Notes under the pieces: generated by a model
The model's input: the letters and a program-made list of their open reading frames with translations, nothing else
Databases searched by the model: none
Told to the model about the DNA's origin: nothing
Part shown: positions 45,271 to 54,837 of the stretch, in pieces
Layout: every line of letters begins with the position of its first letter
Numbering within the stretch: the first letter of the stretch is position 1
Translations under genes and position numbers: made by a program
Source: Candidatus Poribacteria bacterium
GTDB taxonomy: Bacteria > Poribacteria > WGA-4E > JAJDTR01
Direction of reading: 5' to 3'
Assembly: GCA_028820655.1 (NCBI GenBank)
Contig: JAPPIK010000006.1
Span: 247,427 to 303,153 of the forward strand
Length of the DNA stretch: 55,727 nucleotides

Positions 45271-48200
45271 ATGCCTAAACGCAAAAAGAACACCAAAACC
45301 GTCGAAACACTCACACATACCGACGATAAACGCCCCAACATCCCCACCGCCGAACTCCAGCCGGTGATGGAGAACGACGATCCCATTCCGGTCACCTACG
45401 AGCGCAACCGCGACCTCGATCCCCAATTCGTGTGGCGGGGGAAGGACGAACAGGACTGGTCGGATCTGGTGGTGCAGGCGCCGCCGCTTTTCATTCAGGA
45501 GAAGGTGCATCCGAAGGTGCTGATTGACGACTTGGTGCGGGGTTCGCAGTCCGAGGACGGGGCGCCGCAGGAACAACTCGACCTGTTCGCGGACTTCAAC
45601 GGCTTGCCGAGCGAGGGCGCCAAGACGGAGTTTTACCAGCACGACGCCAACTGGTCGAACCGGATGATCCTCGGCGACAGCCTGCGTGTGATGGCGTCGC
45701 TGGCGGAGCGCGAAGGATTGCGGGGTAAGGTGCAGTGCATCTACATCGATCCGCCCTACGGCATCAAGTTCAACTCCAACTTCCAGTGGTCTACAACAAG
45801 CAAGATTGTGACAGATGGGAAAGCCGAACATATTACGCGCGAACCGGAGCAGGTAAAGGCGTTTCGGGACACCTGGCGGGACGGGATTCACTCCTACCTG
45901 ACCTATCTGCGCGACCGTCTGACCGTAGCAAGGGCCCTACTAACCGGGAGTGGTTCAATCATCGTACAGATTGGGGAAGAGAATGTACACCGAGTGCGCG
46001 CATTGATGGATGAAGTGTTTGGAGAGGAGAATTTTATTGCAAACATACATTTCCGTACAAAGATTCCGCTCGCAAACACGTACCTCGCCGGAGTAACAGA
46101 CCACTTACTATGGTATGGTAAAGATAAAACCCAAACCAAGTATCGAAAGTTGTTTTTTCCACGACTGGTCGGGGAAGGCACTCAATTTACAGTTGTACGG
46201 GCCAAAGACGGAAACATTCGACGTATGACCAGAGAAGAACTATCGGGCAGAGAAGAAATACCGGAGGGTGAATCGGCATGTCGCGGTTTGGATTTGGTGT
46301 CAGCTGGTCGGGGGGAATCCTGTGTGTTCGATGCAGAATTTGAGGGAACAGTTTACCGGACTTCATCACAAAAAAGTTGGAAGACAAACCCGGCGGGCTT
46401 TGAGCGCTGCAAAAAAGCCAACCGGATTTTAGGTGGAAGTACATCGTTGTCTTATCTGTTCATGCACGGCGATTATCCTGTAAGAGAATATTCTAATATG
46501 TGGAGCGATACGCAGGGAGCATCCGATAAGAGCTATGTTGTCCAGACCAGCGATAAAGTGATTCAGCGCTGCCTTCTCATGACGACCGATCCGGGGGACC
46601 TTGTTCTCGATCCGACTTGCGGGTCCGGCACCACCGCATATATCGCCGAGGGTTGGGGCAGGCGTTGGATTACAATCGACACCTCCCGCGTGGCGCTTGC
46701 TCTAGCCCGCGCCCGCATCATGGGCGCCCGCTACGACTACTACCTGCTCTCCGACAGCCGCGAGGGGCAACTCAAGGAGGCGGAGATTGAAGGCAGAGCG
46801 CCTTCGGAGGCGCCAACCTACGGCGATATCCGTCAGGGGTTCGTGTATGATCGGGTGCCTCATGTCACGCTCAAATCCATCGCTCACAACACCGAGATTG
46901 ATGTCATCTGGGAGCGGTATGAGGAGGAGTTGGCGCCGCTCCGCGCCGATTTGTCGAAGGTTGCCGGTCAGGCGCAAACGCTCGAAGAGTGGGAAGTTCC
47001 GCGCGAACGCCCAGAAAATTGGTCCTCCGAGACCGAGCTGCTGCTCGCCGAGTTCTGGGAGTTGCGTGTCGCCCGCCAGAAAGAGATTGACGCCTCCATC
47101 GCCGCCAAAGCCGATTACGAATACCTTTTCGACAAACCCTACTCAGACAACAAAAAGGTGCGCGTGGCGGGACCGTTCACCGTGGAAAGCCTCTCGCCTC
47201 ACCGCGTGCTCGGGGTTGACGAGAACGACGAACTGATCGATAACCTCGCCGACGCCGAACTCGGCTACGGCGAAACTCAGGACTTTGCGACCCTGATTCT
47301 TGAGCACCTCAAAACCTCCGGCGTGCAACAGGCGCATAAGGAGGACCGCATCTCCTTTACCGGCATCAAACCTTGGCCCGGCGACCTCGTTTGCGCCGAG
47401 GGCAGATACGTCGAGGGCGATCCCGACTCCGGCGTTGACAAACGCGCCGCCATCTTTATCGGTCCTGAATTTGGCACCGTCTCCCGTCCCGATCTCGTTG
47501 AAGCCGCCCGCGAGGCGGCGGACGCCGACTTCGATCTCCTGATAGCTTGCGCATTCTCCTACGAAGCCCACTCCACCGATCTCGACAAACTCGGCAAAAT
47601 CCCGATACTCAAGGCACGAATGAACGCCGATCTCCACATGGCTGCCGACCTCAGCAATACCGGCAAAGGGAATCTGTTCGTGATTTTCGGCGAACCGGAT
47701 ATTACAGTGGCCAGTGGCCTGTGGCTAGTGACCAGTAAAGGACAAAAATTTGCAAATTATGAACAAGTTAAAGAGTTATCAAGACTTGGAAGTTTGGAAG
47801 AAATCAATCGAGTTGGCAGAGATGGTTTACCGCATCTCTGCGGAGTTTCCGTCGGAGGAGAAGTTCGGCATAACCAGCCAGGTGCGGAGAGCGGCAGCAT
47901 CGGTCCCAGCGAACATCGCGGAGGGATCGGAACGTCAGCGGACCGGGGAGTTTCTTCAGTTTCTGGGGATCGCGAGCGGCTCCCTGGCGGAGACGGAGAC
48001 ATTTCTGATTCTGGCGCACCGGTTGGGGATAGCCAAAGCCGAGCAGATCAAACCCTTACTAGATCTAGCGGGGGATATTGGACGGATGCTCAACGGTCTC
48101 AAACGTTCGCTGCGATCAAAAACCTGACCGATGCGGACTTCCCACTGGCACTGACCACTGGCCACTGGACACAGGTTACCGTTCACGGCGTTGATGTGTT

Positions 48201-48492
48201 TCATCCCAACACGGGCGAGATTCGGAGCGACAGCACCGACGGCATCGCCTGCTGGTTTATCGATACCGACTATAACGCGGAGAGTTTTTTCGTGCGGCAC
48301 GCTTATTTCCTCGGCGCGAATGACCCCTACAAAGCGCTCAAGACGACGCTGAAAGCGGAGATTAACCGCGAAGCCTGGGAGACGCTCCACAGCGACACCT
48401 CACGGCCGTTCGAGAAGCCGGCGTCCGGGCGGATCGCCGTAAAAGTCATCAATCACCTCGGGGATGAGGTGATGAAGGTTTTTCGGGTATAG
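45271..48492 (+). CDS. Type III adenine DNA methyltransferase (Mod) with an in-frame inserted element
   Basis: The 1073-aa beta-class N6-adenine/N4-cytosine methyltransferase has the DPPY motif at residues 160-163 (YIDPPYGIKF) and the SAM motif LDPTCGSGTTAYIAEGW near 445-460. Type III Mod enzymes methylate one strand of an asymmetric site and pair with Res. The C-terminal part (about 970-1073) has GVDVFHPNTGEIRSD, YFLGANDPYKALKTTLKAEI and HLGDEVMKVF, as in Res-linked Mods. Between FGEPDI (about residue 810) and QVTVHGVDVF lies ~157 codons of low-complexity, glycine-rich sequence. It is the out-of-frame reading of the inserted S23/IVP element. The Mod frame stays open across it, so the protein may still be made. 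The matching res gene is broken. Confidence 0.88.
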   Translation: MPKRKKNTKTVETLTHTDDKRPNIPTAELQPVMENDDPIPVTYERNRDLDPQFVWRGKDEQDWSDLVVQAPPLFIQEKVHPKVLIDDLVRGSQSEDGAPQEQLDLFADFNGLPSEGAKTEFYQHDANWSNRMILGDSLRVMASLAEREGLRGKVQCIYIDPPYGIKFNSNFQWSTTSKIVTDGKAEHITREPEQVKAFRDTWRDGIHSYLTYLRDRLTVARALLTGSGSIIVQIGEENVHRVRALMDEVFGEENFIANIHFRTKIPLANTYLAGVTDHLLWYGKDKTQTKYRKLFFPRLVGEGTQFTVVRAKDGNIRRMTREELSGREEIPEGESACRGLDLVSAGRGESCVFDAEFEGTVYRTSSQKSWKTNPAGFERCKKANRILGGSTSLSYLFMHGDYPVREYSNMWSDTQGASDKSYVVQTSDKVIQRCLLMTTDPGDLVLDPTCGSGTTAYIAEGWGRRWITIDTSRVALALARARIMGARYDYYLLSDSREGQLKEAEIEGRAPSEAPTYGDIRQGFVYDRVPHVTLKSIAHNTEIDVIWERYEEELAPLRADLSKVAGQAQTLEEWEVPRERPENWSSETELLLAEFWELRVARQKEIDASIAAKADYEYLFDKPYSDNKKVRVAGPFTVESLSPHRVLGVDENDELIDNLADAELGYGETQDFATLILEHLKTSGVQQAHKEDRISFTGIKPWPGDLVCAEGRYVEGDPDSGVDKRAAIFIGPEFGTVSRPDLVEAAREAADADFDLLIACAFSYEAHSTDLDKLGKIPILKARMNADLHMAADLSNTGKGNLFVIFGEPDITVASGLWLVTSKGQKFANYEQVKELSRLGSLEEINRVGRDGLPHLCGVSVGGEVRHNQPGAESGSIGPSEHRGGIGTSADRGVSSVSGDRERLPGGDGDISDSGAPVGDSQSRADQTLTRSSGGYWTDAQRSQTFAAIKNLTDADFPLALTTGHWTQVTVHGVDVFHPNTGEIRSDSTDGIACWFIDTDYNAESFFVRHAYFLGANDPYKALKTTLKAEINREAWETLHSDTSRPFEKPASGRIAVKVINHLGDEVMKVFRV
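47705..48167 (+). mobile_element. IVS-like element encoding an S23/IVP four-helix-bundle protein, inserted in mod
   Basis: Perfect 13-bp inverted ends, CAGTGGCCAGTGG (47705-47717) and CCACTGGCCACTG (48155-48167), bound 463 bp. The only gene inside is the S23-like one. The element interrupts mod at a point where related proteins run straight from FGEPDI to the GVDVF segment. S23/IVP genes are known as intervening sequences in 23S rRNA; here the host is a protein gene. No transposase is present, so movement would have to be in trans or by another route. Confidence 0.75.
47750..48127 (+). CDS. Four-helix-bundle protein (23S rRNA intervening-sequence protein, S23/IVP family)
   Basis: The ~125-aa protein is read in a different frame from the mod gene that contains it. 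It has the family opening YQDLEVWKKSIELAEMVYR, the middle motif SQVRRAAASVPANIAEG and GEFLQFLGIASGSLAETETF. These are the hallmarks of S23/IVP proteins, homologous to the Avd accessory protein of diversity-generating retroelements. They form basic pentameric bundles that bind nucleic acid. AAAGGA at 47737-47742 supports the TTG at 47750; ATG 47759 is the alternative start. The function is unknown. Confidence 0.9.
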   Translation: MQIMNKLKSYQDLEVWKKSIELAEMVYRISAEFPSEEKFGITSQVRRAAASVPANIAEGSERQRTGEFLQFLGIASGSLAETETFLILAHRLGIAKAEQIKPLLDLAGDIGRMLNGLKRSLRSKT

Positions 48493-48540: not shown

Positions 48541-48945
48541 ATGGATGCATCGAAAGAACTCGAAATCTACAAACAGCGATATGAGACGTTCCGTTATCTT
48601 GATCGTCTACGTTGGCAAATGTTGCAGATCGCGGTCATAGTAGGTTCGTTGATTCTGGCTTATGGAAAAGACGGATCTGAACCGGCACGATGGGTATTCG
48701 TGGTAGTTGGCGCCTTATTCATGGTGCTTGGATTGACAATGCTGAAAATAAGACACGGAATAAATGTTAACAACCAAGTTCTGCATAAAGCCGCAACGCG
48801 GGTTGGTGACACTGATATTCCGCCGGCTTCTAAGTGGTGGAAGAGCATTGGTTGTTGGATTTCTTTGATTTTGATTGGCCTTGGGGTGTTATGTATAGCC
48901 ATATCCATTTTTTCCGCACAATCCAATGGAGGCCCCGATGCATAA
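48541..48945 (+). CDS. Small three-TM membrane protein, putative effector
   Basis: The 134-aa protein has an N-terminal amphipathic helix (DASKELEIYKQRYETFRYLD) and three hydrophobic segments: about 28-44 (LQIAVIVGSLILAYG), 50-68 (WVFVVVGALFMVLGLTML) and 100-123 (ISLILIGLGVLCIAISIFS). It matches no family I can name with certainty, though SLATT-type defence membrane proteins have a similar layout. The TIR-like gene overlaps its 3' end by 8 nt, so the two are co-translated. A membrane-disrupting effector controlled by a TIR-made signal is an attractive inference. Confidence 0.6.
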   Translation: MDASKELEIYKQRYETFRYLDRLRWQMLQIAVIVGSLILAYGKDGSEPARWVFVVVGALFMVLGLTMLKIRHGINVNNQVLHKAATRVGDTDIPPASKWWKSIGCWISLILIGLGVLCIAISIFSAQSNGGPDA

Positions 48946-49546
48946 GGTTTTTACCAGCTACCACCACGCCAAAGATCAATATTACAAAGACTGGCTTGTC
49001 CGGATGGGCGAAAATTACGAGATATTTATTGATCGGTCGGTGGACACAGGAGACATATCCGACAATCTCACCGATCAAGCAATCAGAGAGAAAATTCGAG
49101 ATGACTATCTCCGCGACTCCACGGTTACTATTGTGCTTGTAGGCGAAGAAACAAAACGTCGAGAGCACGTGGACTGGGAGATTTATTCCAGTATGATTGA
49201 TGGCAGAGTCAACAAAAAGTCTGGAATTCTCACGGTGAGTCTACCATCAATTGAAACCAGTTCCTCGATCTACGTCTCGCATTCTGGTGAGAAAAAAGCC
49301 GTCTATCCTGATATCCACGTATGGCAAACCCTGACCAGCCGGACCGAGTTCGAGAGTTACTACCCCTATATGCCCGACAGGATTATTGACAACTTACTGG
49401 AGCAAGAAGCCAAAGTTTCAGTCACCGCATGGTCCAGGATTGAAAACAATCCGAAGAACCTCCAATTCCTTATTGATGCCGCGTTTGAAGATCGCGCTAA
49501 ATGCAAATATGACCTTCGGCGGCCTATGAGGAGAAATAATTCGTGA
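48938..49546 (+). CDS. TIR-like (MTH538/ThsB-type) domain protein
   Basis: The 202-aa protein begins MHKVFTSYHHAKDQYYKDWL and continues DRSVDTGDISDNLTDQAIRE and STVTIVLVGEETKRREHVDW-EIYSSM. This pattern (FISYhH, NWPx/IRD, VVLIG..T..R.W..WEI) is typical of the MTH538 TIR-like family that includes ThsB of Thoeris defence. ThsB proteins sense phage and make cyclic-ADP-ribose-type signals from NAD. GGAGG (48928-48932) precedes the ATG at 48938 by 5 nt, inside the end of the membrane-protein gene. No ThsA (SIR2/SLOG or macro domain) is present, so the membrane protein may be its effector. The TGA at 49544-49546 overlaps a decayed helicase start. Confidence 0.8.
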   Translation: MHKVFTSYHHAKDQYYKDWLVRMGENYEIFIDRSVDTGDISDNLTDQAIREKIRDDYLRDSTVTIVLVGEETKRREHVDWEIYSSMIDGRVNKKSGILTVSLPSIETSSSIYVSHSGEKKAVYPDIHVWQTLTSRTEFESYYPYMPDRIIDNLLEQEAKVSVTAWSRIENNPKNLQFLIDAAFEDRAKCKYDLRRPMRRNNS

Positions 49547-49640
49547 TGGAATTTCGAATTGCCAACACCTTCACGGACTGCCACGCCGATCTCACTGGAG
49601 TTGAGCAGTAAGATGCCAAGACCACGACTTTTGCCTCCGA
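49546..49640 (+). pseudogene. Decayed copy of the helicase 5' end
   Basis: ATG 49546, overlapping the TIR stop as TGATG, reads MEFRIANTFTDCHADLTGVE-Q then TAA. The downstream copy at 52000 reads MDFRIANTFTDSLAKLTGNE-QKGAKTTAF, and the similarity continues past the stop (DAKTTTFAS). This is therefore a relic of the same gene start, truncated by a stop and then lost. The ATPase/nuclease pair lies between relic and intact gene. Confidence 0.75.
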
Positions 49641-49785
49641 ACAGACTCGGTACCGAACGCATGTCGAATTGAGCGCTCAAGCGAGACCATATGAGCAAAT
49701 AGGGCGATCCGATTGCAGGTTGTTAATCCGTGAAATCCTTAAATCCGTTTAATCCGTGATTCAGACAATTGCCAAATGGTGCCTC

Positions 49786-49812
49786 ACTGACCACTAGCCA
49801 CAAACCACTGTC
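49786..49812. repeat. CCACT-rich boundary repeat upstream of the ATPase
   Basis: ACTGACCACTAGCCACAAACCACTG lies in the 312-bp gap (49547-49858) between the TIR gene and the ATPase gene. A second CTTAAATCCGTTTAATCCGTG-type repeat (about 49737-49758) and the helicase relic fill the rest. Confidence 0.55.
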
Positions 49813-49858: not shown

Positions 49859-51457
49859 ATGAAAACAGATCGGAACGCCAAAACTACAAACATGCAAGTC
49901 CCAACGCCCTCGAATGTTCGGATTTCTGTAAAAGATTTCGGCCCCATCGCGAAAGGCTCTATAGATCTGCGGCCATTGACCATATTTGTCGGTCCGAGCA
50001 ACACCGGCAAAACGTACTTTGCAACACTGATCTACGCACTGCACCTGATGCTGGATGGATTTCAACGGCTACCCGTCGTGTTTGCCTATCGAGATCATTT
50101 TGAGCCAGGTTTCCTCCGTGACGAAACCCTGGCGACAAATATTGGTTTGCGGAAAGAGGAACTTCAGGAAACGCTCAAGAAACTAGAAACCGTAGGGCGT
50201 GCCTTCAGATTCTTGGATTTGCCTAGAGGTGTCCGCGACGCCGTGCGGTCAGTTCTCAAGAATCCCGAAGTATTGGGCGCGTGTATCGGAACCGAGTTTG
50301 AACGTTGCTTCGATCTCAAATCCTTGTCCGATCTGGTGCGATTGTCCTGTGAATCCGGTGGAACACAACTTTCACTTGATGTCAGCGAAGAAAAACAGTC
50401 TCTCTGGCATTTCGACATGGAACTTTCCGCGTCAGGCATCACCACAAGTGGGGAGATTGAGGATATAATCCTTTTCCCTGAGGAGTGGTTGACTTCGACA
50501 TTGGGGCACCATCGGGAATTTCACCGATTCAGCGCGTTAGTCAAAGAGAGAATGGAACTTGATTCTTCACTTGAACGAGGGCACTTGTTTGAGTTCTTTG
50601 ATCGATTATTGTACGCGGCAAATTTTGCCAATGAGCAAGACGACATGCATTACCTGCCTGCTAACCGCAGCGGCATCATGCAGAGCCACCGTCTGATCGC
50701 AAGTTCCCTCGTGGCACGCTCCACGCGCACAGGGCAAGGACACCCCCGTGAATTTCCAACACTGCCAGGCGTGACGGCGGACTTTATGGAGCAACTCATC
50801 CTTTTCACAGAGGAACGAGAGCGGGACGAGCTAATCAAGACGATTGCCGACACCCTCGAACGTGAGGTGCTTGACGGGCAGATACTAATCAATAGGGCGT
50901 CGGCGGGCGGATATCCGGAATTCGTCTATCAACCGCGCAAAACGAACGAAATCATTCGCTTGACCCGTGTTTCGTCCATGGTCTCCGAACTCGCGCCCGT
51001 TGTGTTGTTTCTCCGCGCTGTCATTAATCGCGGCGACATGCTCATCATTGAGGAGCCTGAAGCGCATCTTCATCCCGCGGCACAGACCGAGATGGCGAAG
51101 ACATTGGGCCGCCTGGTGCGCGCCGGGGTGCGGGTTGTGGTTACCACGCACAGCGACTGGTTGCTTAAAGAGATTGGAAATCTGGTGCGCGAGGGGGAAC
51201 TCAAAGATAAAACCGGCCAACCGGACAGAGAAAACCTACTTCCGAGTTCGCTCCAACCCAGCGATGTGGGCGTCTGGCAGTTCCGCAAGGATGGTACTTC
51301 CAAAGGGGCGACGGTAGAGGAAATCCCGTATGACCGAATCGAGGGTGTCGAACCTGAGGAGTATGAATACGTCTCTGAGGCGCTTTACAACCGCTCAGCC
51401 GACTTGCAAAACCAACTCGCGGAAACGGCGGGCGGGACAAAATACAAACATGAATGA
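49859..51457 (+). CDS. AAA/OLD-like ATPase
   Basis: The 532-aa ABC/SMC-like ATPase begins VRISVKDFGPIAKGSIDLRP and has Walker A FVGPSNTGKTYFA (about residues 40-52). Walker B is LIIEEPEAHLHPAAQTEM (about 400-417), followed by the H-loop region VVTTHSDWLLKEI. The central ~300 residues are a helical insert. Such ATPases control nucleases in several two-gene defence systems. The next gene overlaps its 3' end by 8 nt and encodes a PD-(D/E)XK-like protein, so it is probably an ATPase/nuclease pair. AGGAG (49847-49851) is 7 nt before the ATG. Confidence 0.83.
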   Translation: MKTDRNAKTTNMQVPTPSNVRISVKDFGPIAKGSIDLRPLTIFVGPSNTGKTYFATLIYALHLMLDGFQRLPVVFAYRDHFEPGFLRDETLATNIGLRKEELQETLKKLETVGRAFRFLDLPRGVRDAVRSVLKNPEVLGACIGTEFERCFDLKSLSDLVRLSCESGGTQLSLDVSEEKQSLWHFDMELSASGITTSGEIEDIILFPEEWLTSTLGHHREFHRFSALVKERMELDSSLERGHLFEFFDRLLYAANFANEQDDMHYLPANRSGIMQSHRLIASSLVARSTRTGQGHPREFPTLPGVTADFMEQLILFTEERERDELIKTIADTLEREVLDGQILINRASAGGYPEFVYQPRKTNEIIRLTRVSSMVSELAPVVLFLRAVINRGDMLIIEEPEAHLHPAAQTEMAKTLGRLVRAGVRVVVTTHSDWLLKEIGNLVREGELKDKTGQPDRENLLPSSLQPSDVGVWQFRKDGTSKGATVEEIPYDRIEGVEPEEYEYVSEALYNRSADLQNQLAETAGGTKYKHE

Positions 51458-51959
51458 GATTCTAGCCGAAATTCGGCTAAGAGTGTGCGTTGAAAACCTC
51501 GCTAGGTCGTGCAAGGAGGAAGGATGCGAAGCGTCTCTTGAGGATATCCCATACCCTAGAGTTGTGGTAGATGCGAATAAAGCATTCCCGGCTCAGGCAA
51601 TGGAAGGGCAACGATGTGACTACATCCTTTTCTTCATGAATGCCGCTGAAGACACGCTCTTCACGGTTCCGATTGAACTTAAGAGTGGCAAAGTAGATGC
51701 CTCGGAGGCGATTAACCAACTGCAGGGCGGGGCAGCCTTCGCTAATCGCTTCACGCCGACAAGTTTCAGGTCTATCTGCCGGCCAATCCTGTTCCACGGT
51801 ACGCGGAGAATTCATGAGGAGGAACGCAAGGAACTCGGTCGTAAAAAGATTAGTTTCCGCGACGATAAACTAACCGTCAAGACAGCGCGATGCAGTAAAT
51901 CCAAGAATCTGGCGATTGCCCTATCAAGAGATCTGCGTACTGTAGTGGCGCGTCACTAA
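51450..51959 (+). CDS. PD-(D/E)XK-like nuclease, partner of the ATPase
   Basis: The 169-aa protein has the pattern CDYILFFMNAAEDTLFTVPI-ELKSGK-VDASEAINQL. D of CDY, a beta-strand and ELK then a helix with Q correspond to the D-(D/E)xK-Q arrangement of restriction-type nucleases. The C-terminal part (RRIHEEERKELGRKKISFRD) is basic. The ATG at 51450 overlaps the ATPase stop by 8 nt, indicating coupled expression. It would be the cleaving component of a defence pair. I do not recognise a named family, so the nuclease call rests on the motif. Confidence 0.65.
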   Translation: MNEILAEIRLRVCVENLARSCKEEGCEASLEDIPYPRVVVDANKAFPAQAMEGQRCDYILFFMNAAEDTLFTVPIELKSGKVDASEAINQLQGGAAFANRFTPTSFRSICRPILFHGTRRIHEEERKELGRKKISFRDDKLTVKTARCSKSKNLAIALSRDLRTVVARH

Positions 51960-51998
51960 CCACTCACCACTAACCACTGACCACTAGCCACTGTATTT
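51957..51998. repeat. CCACT-rich boundary repeat upstream of the helicase
   Basis: Four consecutive CCACT(C/A/G) units, ACCACTCACCACTAACCACTG then ACCACTAGCCACTG, separate the nuclease stop from the helicase start. Confidence 0.7.
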
Positions 51999-51999
51999 C

Positions 52000-54069
52000 A
52001 TGGATTTTCGAATTGCCAACACCTTCACCGACAGCCTCGCCAAACTGACCGGCAACGAGCAGAAGGGCGCCAAGACCACGGCTTTTGACCTTCAAATGAA
52101 TCCAGCCCAACCCGGGCTGCAATTCCACAAGCTGTCAAAGACCAAGGACCCGAATTTCCGGTCTGTGCGCGTCAGCCAAGACGTGCGAATCATCGTTCAC
52201 CAACTCCGGAACTCCTTGGTGCTGTGCTACGTCGATCATCACGACAACGCCTATCGCTGGGCAGAGCGGCGCAAACTGGATGTGCATCCCCAAACCGGCG
52301 CCGCTCAATTGGTTGAAGTACGAGAGACGATCCAAGAAATCACCGTCCCCGTCTACGTCGCAACCGAGGCGGAGGTTTCCTGCAAGCCGCCGCTATTCGC
52401 GGAAATGCCCGATGACGAATTGCTGGGATACGGTGTTCCGGAAGAGTGGCTGGAGGAGGTTCGCGGCGCGGACGAGGACAGTCTGCTGGCGTTGTCCGAT
52501 AATCTGCCGAGTGAAGCGGCGGAGGCGTTGCTTGAATTGGCTGTTGGCGGAACGCCGGTAATCCAACCGGTTGCAACCGCCGCCGATCCGTTTGATCACC
52601 CCGACGCCCAGCGCCGTTTCCGCTTAATGACGAATGTGGAAGAACTAGAACGCGCGCTCAACTATCCGTGGGAGAAGTGGGCGGTGTTCCTTCACCCGGC
52701 GCAGCGGCAGGTGGTGGAGGGGGATTACAACAGCGCGTTTCGAGTGGCTGGCTCAGCCGGTACCGGCAAGACCGTCGTCGCTATCCACCGCGCCGTGTTC
52801 CTCGCACGGGCGAACCCGGATGCCAGGGTTCTACTCACCACTTTCTCCCAGACCTTGGCTGACGCGCTTCGGACAAAACTCAAACGGTTAATCTACAACG
52901 AGCCGCGGGTTGCGGAACGCGTGGAGGTCGACGCGGTCGACGCGGTTGGCGAGCGGCTTTACCGGGCGCATTTCGGCTCACCGGAAATAGCGACCCAGGA
53001 GGCGGTTAAGTCGATTATGACCGATGTTCGCCAAGACGCAGAGCCGAACCGTTTCAATTTGCGATTTCTGCTGAGCGAATGGGAGAGTGTCGTCGACGCC
53101 TGGGGTTTGGATAGCTGGGAGGCGTATCGCGATATCAGGAGGCTGGGACGCAAGACACGATTGCCGGTGGGACAGCGCTTTATCCTTTGGTCAATATTTG
53201 AAGGGGTCAAAACCAATCTTCGGGAACGCGGTCTGGTGACCCGCTCGGAACTGTTCGGTTTAACTGCTCAAAAACTGAAAGATCGCCGGCATCCGCCGTA
53301 TGATTTCGCGGTGGTCGATGAGGCGCAGGATATTAGCGTCCCGCAACTGCGTTTCCTCGCCGCATTGGGCGGGGACAGCCCTAACAGTCTGTTTTTCGCG
53401 GGCGATCTCGGACAACGTATCTTTCAAACGCCCTTCTCATGGAAAGCGTTGGGTGTCGATGTTCGGGGAAGATCTCAGACGCTCAAAATTAATTATCGAA
53501 CCTCGCATCAAATTCGGAAGCAGGCGGATCTGTTGCTGGGGCCCGAGGTCGCCGATGTGGATGGCAACGTTGAGGACCGACGCGGCACCATCTCGGCATT
53601 CAACGGCGAACCCCCGACCATCCACCGCTTTGAGAGCGAGCGGGAAGAGGCCGAGCTTGTCGGCGTGTGGTTGCAAGAGTGCCTTGACAAAGGCGTGGAA
53701 GGGAAGGAGATTGGGGTATTCGTGCGGTCGAAGACGGAGTTTGACCGAGCGTGTGCGGCGGTGCGCGAAGCCGGATTGGCGTATCGGGTATTGGACGATG
53801 GTACGGCGTCGGGTGACGAGTCTGTGTCCATCAGCACGATGCACTTGGCGAAGGGTTTGGAGTTCCGAGCCGTTGCCGTCATGGCGTGCGACGACGAAGT
53901 CATACCACTGCAGGAACGGATAGAGACGGTCGCGGACGATGCGGATCTTGAGGAGGTCTACAACACGGAACGGCACCTGCTCTATGTCGCCTGCACCCGG
54001 GCGCGGGACCATCTGCTCATCACCAGCGTCGAGCCGGCGTCGGAGTTTTTGGATGATCTGGAGATGTAG
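52000..54069 (+). CDS. UvrD/Rep-type helicase with N-terminal RelE/ParE-like domain
   Basis: This is a 689-aa protein. The first ~95 residues (FRIANTFTDSLAKLTGNEQK, VRVSQDVRIIVHQLRNSLVL, CYVDHHDNAYRWAERRKLD) look like a RelE/ParE toxin fold. An SF1A helicase follows. Walker A is AGSAGTGKTVVAIHRAVFLA (about 250). Motif II is FAVVDEAQDISVPQL, then GDLGQRIFQTPFSW and NYRTSHQIRKQAD. STMHLAKGLEFRAVAVMACD is motif V, and LLYVACTRARDHLLIT is motif VI. Such helicases unwind DNA 3'-5' and accompany restriction and other defence genes. A decayed copy of its 5' end lies at 49546. Confidence 0.88.
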   Translation: MDFRIANTFTDSLAKLTGNEQKGAKTTAFDLQMNPAQPGLQFHKLSKTKDPNFRSVRVSQDVRIIVHQLRNSLVLCYVDHHDNAYRWAERRKLDVHPQTGAAQLVEVRETIQEITVPVYVATEAEVSCKPPLFAEMPDDELLGYGVPEEWLEEVRGADEDSLLALSDNLPSEAAEALLELAVGGTPVIQPVATAADPFDHPDAQRRFRLMTNVEELERALNYPWEKWAVFLHPAQRQVVEGDYNSAFRVAGSAGTGKTVVAIHRAVFLARANPDARVLLTTFSQTLADALRTKLKRLIYNEPRVAERVEVDAVDAVGERLYRAHFGSPEIATQEAVKSIMTDVRQDAEPNRFNLRFLLSEWESVVDAWGLDSWEAYRDIRRLGRKTRLPVGQRFILWSIFEGVKTNLRERGLVTRSELFGLTAQKLKDRRHPPYDFAVVDEAQDISVPQLRFLAALGGDSPNSLFFAGDLGQRIFQTPFSWKALGVDVRGRSQTLKINYRTSHQIRKQADLLLGPEVADVDGNVEDRRGTISAFNGEPPTIHRFESEREEAELVGVWLQECLDKGVEGKEIGVFVRSKTEFDRACAAVREAGLAYRVLDDGTASGDESVSISTMHLAKGLEFRAVAVMACDDEVIPLQERIETVADDADLEEVYNTERHLLYVACTRARDHLLITSVEPASEFLDDLEM

Positions 54070-54364: not shown

Positions 54365-54439
54365 GCTGGCGTGGCTCAATGGTAGAGCAGGTGATTTGTA
54401 ATCACCAGGTTGGAGGTTCGATTCCTCTCGCCAGCTCCA
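54365..54439 (+). tRNA. tRNA-Thr (anticodon TGT)
   Basis: GCTGGCG (54365-54371) pairs with CGCCAGC (54429-54435); the anticodon arm is GGTGATTTGTAATCACC and the T arm is GGAGGTTCGATTCCTC. The CCA end is encoded (54437-54439). Confidence 0.95.
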
Positions 54440-54451
54440 TACCCACGGCAC

Positions 54452-54534
54452 GGGGAGGTACTCAAGCGGTCAACGAGGGCAGACTGTAAATCTGTTGGCT
54501 ATTGCCTACGGAGGTTCGAATCCTTCCCTCCCCA
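54452..54534 (+). tRNA. tRNA-Tyr (anticodon GTA)
   Basis: GGGGAGG (54452-54458) pairs with CCTCCCC (54527-54533). The anticodon arm CAGACTGTAAATCTG has GTA, and a long variable arm fits a class II tRNA-Tyr. The discriminator is A; CCA is not encoded. Confidence 0.95.
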
Positions 54535-54564
54535 TCCTTTCCTCCATCCCCAATCAGACAGCGT

Positions 54565-54637
54565 GCGGGAGTAGCTCAGTTGGTAGAGCATTGGCCTTCC
54601 AAGCCAATTGTCGCGGGTTCAAGTCCCGTCTCCCGCT
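54565..54637 (+). tRNA. tRNA-Gly (anticodon TCC)
   Basis: GCGGGAG (54565-54571) pairs with CTCCCGC (54630-54636); the anticodon arm TTGGCCTTCCAAGCCAA has TCC and the discriminator is T. CCA is not encoded. Confidence 0.95.
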
Positions 54638-54746
54638 TCGCCGCGCAACTCCTCGGATTCCCAAGTTGCGGGGTGGGACAGATCAAGTAAAATCTCCCGG
54701 AAAGCGGGCACAATGCCCCCGTTAGGTGTGAAACAAACTACTCGTC

Positions 54747-54837
54747 GGAGAGATGCAGGAGATGGCTGAACTGGCATGATTGGAAATCATGTGTGCAGGC
54801 AACTGTACCGTGGGTTCGAATCCCACTCTCTCCGCCA
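54747..54837 (+). tRNA. tRNA-Ser (anticodon GGA)
   Basis: GGAGAGA (54747-54753) pairs with TCTCTCC (54827-54833). The anticodon arm CATGATTGGAAATCATG has GGA, and a long variable arm follows. The discriminator is G and CCA is encoded (54835-54837). Confidence 0.94.

Follow-up and report, generated by a model that had tools for sequence, protein, structure and literature searches.

A WonAB-like ATPase–nuclease pair in Candidatus Poribacteria whose nuclease shares its history with the ATPase tail and not with the ATPase head

Introduction

Among the described two-gene systems, WonAB from the WASA-1 prophage of Vibrio cholerae shares the architecture of the locus studied here, an OLD-type ABC ATPase gene followed by a small PD-(D/E)xK nuclease gene. 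According to the parts of the published account drawn on here (PMC12137116), activity against phage ICP1 requires both genes, the ATPase motifs and Lys71 of WonB, and WonB is placed by prediction on WonA's C-terminal extensions, which are dimerised. The same parts describe abortive infection that acts once phage DNA replication has begun and halts translation on activation; phage DNA is not restricted on entry, the start of replication is not blocked and chromosomal DNA is not degraded. Overproduced WonB is reported there to be toxic only when WonA is present and active, and simple sequestration was ruled out. WonAB was counted in 0.43% of bacterial genomes and the wider operon in 0.96%.

PD-T4-4 was obtained in E. 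coli by functional selection, as stated in the part of PMC9519451 used here, and is entered in a review table as an AAA ATPase with a PD-(D/E)XK nuclease (PMC10952713, the table being the part consulted). PADLOC additionally holds PDC-M47, a candidate two-gene system whose name we did not find in the literature searched.

Here we analyse a 55,727-nucleotide stretch of a Candidatus Poribacteria genome (assembly GCA_028820655.1, contig JAPPIK010000006.1, positions 247,427 to 303,153), hereafter the window. A first-pass annotation, made from the letters alone, had noticed in it an overlapping ATPase–nuclease pair, taken it for an apparent mobile cassette and recognised no named system that it matched. 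We find that the pair belongs to the catalogued and partly characterised WonAB/PD-T4-4/PDC-M47 kind. What is new here is the exchange of the effector end, the kind of system being already catalogued; no earlier report of tail and nuclease exchange in a WonAB-like family appeared in the literature searched, whose coverage stopped short of the ABC-ATPase survey that defines the OLD-ABC + REase operon.

Results and discussion

The ATPase gene (49859..51457, + strand, 532 aa) and the nuclease gene (51450..51959, + strand, 169 aa) overlap by 8 nt at 51450-51457, as the first-pass annotation had said. The nuclease frame starts at 51330 in a mechanical list of open reading frames; alignments of homologues begin at the ATG at 51450. 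Downstream lies an intact UvrD-like helicase gene (52000..54069, + strand; UvrD_C 3.6e-21, UvrD-helicase 1e-15), and upstream a decayed 88-nt copy of its 5' end with an in-frame stop (49546..49633, + strand), 81% identical to 52000-52087. The alignment of the two scores 92, against a maximum of 28 over 200 shuffles, so that the placement of the pair between a decayed and an intact helicase 5' end, also proposed earlier, holds. A genome search for a third copy found none, each stretch matching only the other. The helicase itself had no match at E<=1e-60 among the 10 relatives searched, 9 of them nuclease-bearing, and thus no empty site was available for comparison. We do not propose the helicase as a component of the system. 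A fragment that recalls the helicase remnant occurs at another locus (L009, 1191-1376, − strand), which has, downstream of its complete pair, a 5' piece of an ATPase head with Walker A and then a stop.

The reading of the large protein as an OLD/SMC-like ATPase was borne out. Pfam assigns AAA_15 (9e-24) and AAA_21 (1.7e-11), and a scan to E 10 listed no Toprim domain. Among solved structures, its AF2 model (mean pLDDT 79; final ~40 residues at or below 50) best matches PtuA from Septu and Retron-Eco7, with SMC and Rad50 heads next, at TM-scores of 0.3-0.4 by query; the best Foldseek match is Septu PtuA (2.1e-11, TM-score 0.33 by query). Walker A is GPSNTGKT (aa 45-52; 49991..50014, + strand), with G45, S47, N48, G50 and K51 invariant in 34/34 homologues. 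Walker B and the D-loop form LIIEEPEAHLHP (aa 395-406; 51041..51076, + strand), in which E399, P400, E401, H403, L404, H405 and P406 are invariant in 34/34, and the H-loop TTHS (aa 429-432; 51143..51154, + strand) is likewise invariant in all 34. In the relatives shown, the leading E of EEPE and the H lie 33 residues apart, one relative having 34. WonA has the same 33 residues between E300 and H333, assuming that E300 is the leading E of that motif, whereas Walker A Lys and Walker B Glu lie 347 residues apart here (K51-E398) and 266 in WonA (K34-E300; figures from the parts of PMC12137116 used), indicating a longer insert in our protein.

The small protein is, by prediction, a PD-(D/E)XK-like nuclease. 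The D...ELK...Q pattern noted previously corresponds to D57, E76-L77-K78 and Q90. Among 138 non-redundant homologues, the position of the proposed active-site Asp, D57 (51618..51620, + strand), holds D in 125 and E in 12, hence an acidic residue in 137; in the proposed ExK motif (51675..51683, + strand) E76 is kept in 137/138 and K78 in 131/138, and Q90 is present in 109/138. All three of D57, E76 and K78 are kept in the 34/34 aligned nuclease homologues. Homologues lacking the conserved D, E and K had been named as the finding that would overturn the assignment, and these figures show the opposite. In the AF2 model (pLDDT 93.4), which is confident and nuclease-like in fold, D57 stands immediately before strand 58-64, and E76 and K78 lie within strand 69-78. 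VIA-align returned mostly PD-(D/E)XK nucleases by title, with unrelated entries interspersed and a middling best Z of 7.6; the nuclease rows include Can2/Card1, BsmI, EndoMS, FokI, NucC and HamA. Because this Z is only middling, we base the superfamily call on the fold in combination with D57, E76 and K78. The best Foldseek E-value is 7.7e-3, and a sequence search for solved relatives gave nothing useful. In the profile search that had been recommended, HSDR_N matched weakly (0.022 for the window protein; 0.0024 at best among 34 homologues), and PDC-M47B of PADLOC matched at 1.6e-5. Three cysteines, C26, C56 and C148, are conserved like the catalytic residues (136, 127 and 133 of 138), and C56 adjoins D57 on its N-terminal side.

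The view that no named system fits was not upheld. The top PADLOC match of the ATPase is PD-T4-4_A (2.4e-37), followed by PDC-M47A (2.6e-29), and both genes match PDC-M47 models, the nuclease weakly (22.7 bits, over residues 41-98 only). A Nitrospirales homologue and the other copy in our own genome match PDC-M47B too. PD-T4-4_B gave no match to the window nuclease up to E 1; an archaeal nuclease (L091) bridges the two, at 6.9e-19 to the profile of the window family and 5.8e-5 to PD-T4-4_B. The likeness to WonAB is one of architecture and published motif numbers: Walker A, Walker B, an H-loop, no Toprim and an adjacent small PD-(D/E)xK nuclease are all found here. PtuAB of Septu and Retron-Eco7 is close in the ATPase, PtuA being the best solved match, and differs in the partner, which by entry titles is an HNH nuclease, while ours has PD-(D/E)XK motifs. 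Gabija (GajAB) and OLD have the OLD-type ATPase domain in common with our locus, and a UvrD-like helicase happens to lie downstream here; in Gabija, however, Toprim is fused to the ATPase, whereas none was found here, where the nuclease has a small gene of its own.

Across 97 genomes, the nuclease (E<=1e-3) was found in 59 and the ATPase (E<=1e-30) in 61. The nuclease occurs in 58 of 72 genomes of the order to which the window belongs (its own included), in 1/10 other members of the class and in 0/15 more distant genomes; the highest count is 7 matches in one genome (G045), one of them a short fragment. A cross-phylum scan covered the best 80 of 247 loci, 19 from Poribacteria and 61 from elsewhere (5 without a phylum), with 8 of the 80 archaeal; many of these records are presumably sponge metagenome bins. 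The survey of gene pairs suggested by the first-pass annotation favours a genuine pairing: in 19 loci recruited by the ATPase alone (L027-L045), a nuclease match lies directly 3' in 18, some split or truncated, and an adjacent nuclease profile match is present in 62 of the best 80 of 247 cross-phylum loci. The 18 others among these 80 include 8 followed, by eye, by a small open frame with ELK, EMK or EFK, and two (L105, L114) that stop at the locus border; L068 was missed solely owing to an open frame that begins far upstream. In L037, the exception among the 19, and in L276 the ATPase frame is open and the nuclease is decayed to remnants by eye, which suggests that the nuclease can be lost before the ATPase. 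Among the 138 full pairs used below, the nearest nucleases are from Nitrospirales (56%) and then Caldilineaceae (49%); the same-genus nuclease (54% over residues 1-99) is split and stands outside this set. Carriage by phages or plasmids was considered and rejected: two collections of phages and plasmids gave no ATPase match at 1e-10, and viral contigs hold distant relatives only.

To compare the histories of the parts, 199 ATPase frames or fragments were reduced to 172 with an adjacent nuclease, 154 full pairs and 138 non-redundant pairs, of which 107 are close to the window and 31 far; since many of these loci were fetched via the nuclease, 172/199 is not an estimate of pairing. In the 107 close pairs, nuclease distances correlate at 0.75 with the ATPase C-terminal tail (aa 433-532; 51155..51454, + strand), our proposed nuclease docking part, and at 0.48 with the ATPase head (aa 19-398; 49913..51052, + strand), our proposed sensor and motor module. 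The partial correlations are 0.65 for the tail and 0.03 for the head, and the difference between tail and head ranges from 0.20 to 0.34 in 60% subsamples. Sixty-residue windows along the ATPase correlate with the nuclease at 0.25-0.48 for starts 19-379 and at up to 0.74 towards the end. Simple decay of linkage with distance was rejected as an explanation, the rise coming only past ~residue 400.

Trees of the parts agree with this picture. At a support of 0.95, head and nuclease conflict in 29/45 and 24/36 splits and head and tail in 23/45 and 8/16, compared with 1/16 and 1/36 for tail and nuclease and 2/27 and 2/34 for the two head parts 19-160 and 161-398. At 0.99, tail and nuclease conflict in 0/6 and 0/16, aa 261-398 and nuclease in 7/14 and 6/16, and aa 89-260 and nuclease in 5/17 and 6/16. 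The head itself is not a single unit, because its parts 89-260 and 261-398 conflict in 3/17 and 3/14 splits at this support, not far below the figure for 89-260 against the nuclease. Chimeric assembly as the source of the mosaics was rejected on 17 copies whose seven source genomes have 1-4 contigs each (of 19 chosen; the other two are absent from the non-redundant full pairs), where the correlation with the nuclease is 0.50 for the tail and 0.20 for the head. No swap signal was seen in the 31 distant pairs, in which head (0.80) and tail (0.81) correlate with the nuclease alike. In the Poribacteria-like clade, then, the ATPase tail and the nuclease have one history and the head has another. 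Orphan tail cassettes in the style of polymorphic toxins were also sought and rejected: a tail profile (A3) run over the 97 genomes found five tails in open frames shorter than 210 aa, namely G016 (at a contig start), G039 (a partial match), G032 (with two stops), G042 (a head with stops) and G065.

Individual mosaics can be read directly. A copy from the same genus (G001) and the second copy of our own genome (C36) occupy the same site, between the same two neighbour genes, whose products we read as a sulfatase and a glycosidase-like protein. Compared in 100-column DNA windows, the G001 copy is, over the first ~1200 bases of the ATPase gene, 0.57-0.87 identical to C36 and 0.49-0.78 to the window copy, with near-equal values in columns 1001-1100; past ~base 1200 it is 0.53-0.85 identical to the window and 0.36-0.57 to C36 (the last window, of 30 nt, being set aside). 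The switch falls in the Walker B/D-loop region (51041..51076) and points to a single breakpoint near Walker B in this set of three. In the pair L062/L266 the tail is 99% and the nuclease 92% identical and the head only 41%; their first 100 nt are also alike, so that an internal segment of the head was exchanged there. L015/L033 show the reverse, with heads 86% and nucleases 27% identical. Among 56 comparisons with heads at least 75% identical, nuclease identity is at most 45% in 11, and among 135 with nucleases at least 75% identical, head identity is at most 55% in 27, the comparisons in both sets being non-independent. Breakpoints differ, at ~residue 400 in G001 and ~466 in L020/L230. The DNA comparison of L247/L258 was set aside, the L247 nuclease beginning ~360 nt past the ATPase, beyond the compared stretch. 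Adjoining the second copy in our own genome is another ATPase pair (L004, 4234-6080; AAA_21 1.3e-26 and DUF4276 4.1e-47); at the same site the same-genus genome has the ATPase–nuclease pair alone, without the AAA_21/DUF4276 pair.

We think it probable that the locus is a two-gene conflict system of the WonAB/PD-T4-4/PDC-M47 type, most likely anti-phage, in which an ATP-driven head activates a tail-held nuclease and the parts reshuffle. The antiviral function of the pair and the role of the head as sensor are both something we infer from the family. The ATPase would work as a dimer of ABC type, sensing infection through its head and the variable insert there and holding the nuclease with its C-terminal tail; driven by ATP, a change in the head would switch the nuclease on, and the active nuclease would cut nucleic acid, either RNA or DNA. 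Such cleavage would arrest growth and so prevent phage production, as PMC12137116 reports for WonAB. Sensor heads and effector ends would be reshuffled when copies recombine near the conserved stretch from Walker B to the H-loop. The border between the modules coincides with the transition from the ABC head to the C-terminal extension, and this extension is the part predicted in WonA to form the nuclease-binding surface (PMC12137116). The simplest reading of the sequences would be that tail and nuclease must fit each other physically and heads are free to vary.

Other arrangements could account for some of the same observations. The pair might form a direct restriction or repair complex whose head binds DNA like Rad50 or SMC and whose nuclease cuts invading or damaged DNA without sacrifice of the cell. 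The ATPase model does match Rad50 and SMC heads as well, and the matches of the nuclease model include restriction enzymes and repair nucleases; yet patchy spread and variable copy number speak against housekeeping repair, and WonAB, in the parts of PMC12137116 used here, acts without restriction on entry, a block to the start of replication or chromosomal degradation. We regard this arrangement as unlikely. Still less probable, in our judgement, is a toxin–antitoxin or addiction pair, in which the ATPase would merely neutralise a toxic nuclease and thereby keep the locus in the genome. The overlap of the genes fits such a pair, the joint exchange of tail and nuclease fits it equally, and L037 and L276 keep an open ATPase frame next to a nuclease decayed by eye, as if the nuclease were costly; the toxicity of WonB, however, requires WonA to be present and active, and the same report rules out sequestration for WonAB (PMC12137116, parts used).

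A working part of a mobile element, serving transposition or integration and not immunity, is very improbable. Two features would suit it, the decayed second copy of the helicase 5' end upstream of the pair and a repeat present on either side: a 17-nt sequence, CACTGACCACTAGCCAC, found by a repeat search around the pair, occurs upstream (49785..49801, + strand) and in the same orientation downstream (51975..51991, + strand). This repeat, however, occurs at 94 genome sites with at most 2 mismatches (1 for a reversed control), and was rejected as an element end, being dispersed genome-wide and marking no element of the pair's own; moreover, our second copy and the same-genus copy share one ordinary site. 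A Pfam scan of neighbours, covering a subset of the window's open frames, revealed no transposase or integrase. Of the earlier idea of a mobile cassette, patchy and multi-copy occurrence across many phyla and the exchange of tail and nuclease therefore stand, while the repeat search around the pair gave no element ends, the neighbours scanned held no transposase or integrase and the flanking repeat is a dispersed one. What sequence comparison shows to move is the ATPase tail together with the nuclease.

Returning to the conflict system of WonAB type, we somewhat favour the view that tail and nuclease are an exchangeable effector end and the head an exchangeable sensor. This would amount to polymorphic, combinatorial immunity in sponge-symbiont bacteria, with several copies per genome recombining inside the ATPase gene. 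The logic of exchange would resemble that by which domains are shuffled in polymorphic toxins or in type I specificity subunits. If the head senses and the tail with its nuclease executes, natural head/tail chimeras separate both functions and locate their border, and would offer ready tests of the signal recognised by WonA-like ATPases and of the way in which they switch on a nuclease. The distribution also indicates that a family reported in fewer than 1% of bacterial genomes (PMC12137116) has relatives that are common and multi-copy in a single lineage, with the nuclease in 58 of the order's 72 genomes. Restriction–modification and CRISPR genes are described as enriched in sponge symbionts in the consulted parts of two studies (PMC8163846, PMC5099237).

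The neighbourhood in the window is defence-like, with a type III-type methyltransferase (PADLOC MTase_III, 1311 bits), a ThsB-like TIR gene (PF08937, 6e-22), an HTH/ImmA-IrrE gene and a DUF4411 gene, and a cluster of tRNA-Thr, Tyr, Gly and Ser genes (54365-54837) lies downstream of the helicase at the edge of these genes. For 20 Poribacterial copies, by comparison, no clear defence enrichment was found: the commonest Pfam families among their 118 neighbours are Laminin_G_3, GFO/IDH/MocA, TPR and TPP enzymes, mainly metabolic and repeat proteins among the 25 of 161 families listed, which speaks against a simple argument from defence islands. At 1e-25, PADLOC matched 72 model families among these neighbours against 44 among 117 control genes, counting models and not genes; the control omitted one protein of 2,427 aa.

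Two smaller features of the window deserve mention. In 48541-49546, a small protein in which membrane helices are apparent by eye, and which matches no family above its cut-off in Pfam and PADLOC scans, overlaps the ThsB-like TIR gene by 20 nt. The methyltransferase frame (45271-48492) contains, in another frame, a gene for a 23S rRNA-intervening-sequence protein (PF05635, 8.3e-39; 47750-48127, + strand), which leaves it uninterrupted. By eye, CAGTGGCCAGTGG-type repeats precede this gene and their reverse complement follows it. Variants of the CACTGACCACTAGCCAC repeat bracket the same gene, and repeats of this type may mark the ends of intervening-sequence-protein elements.
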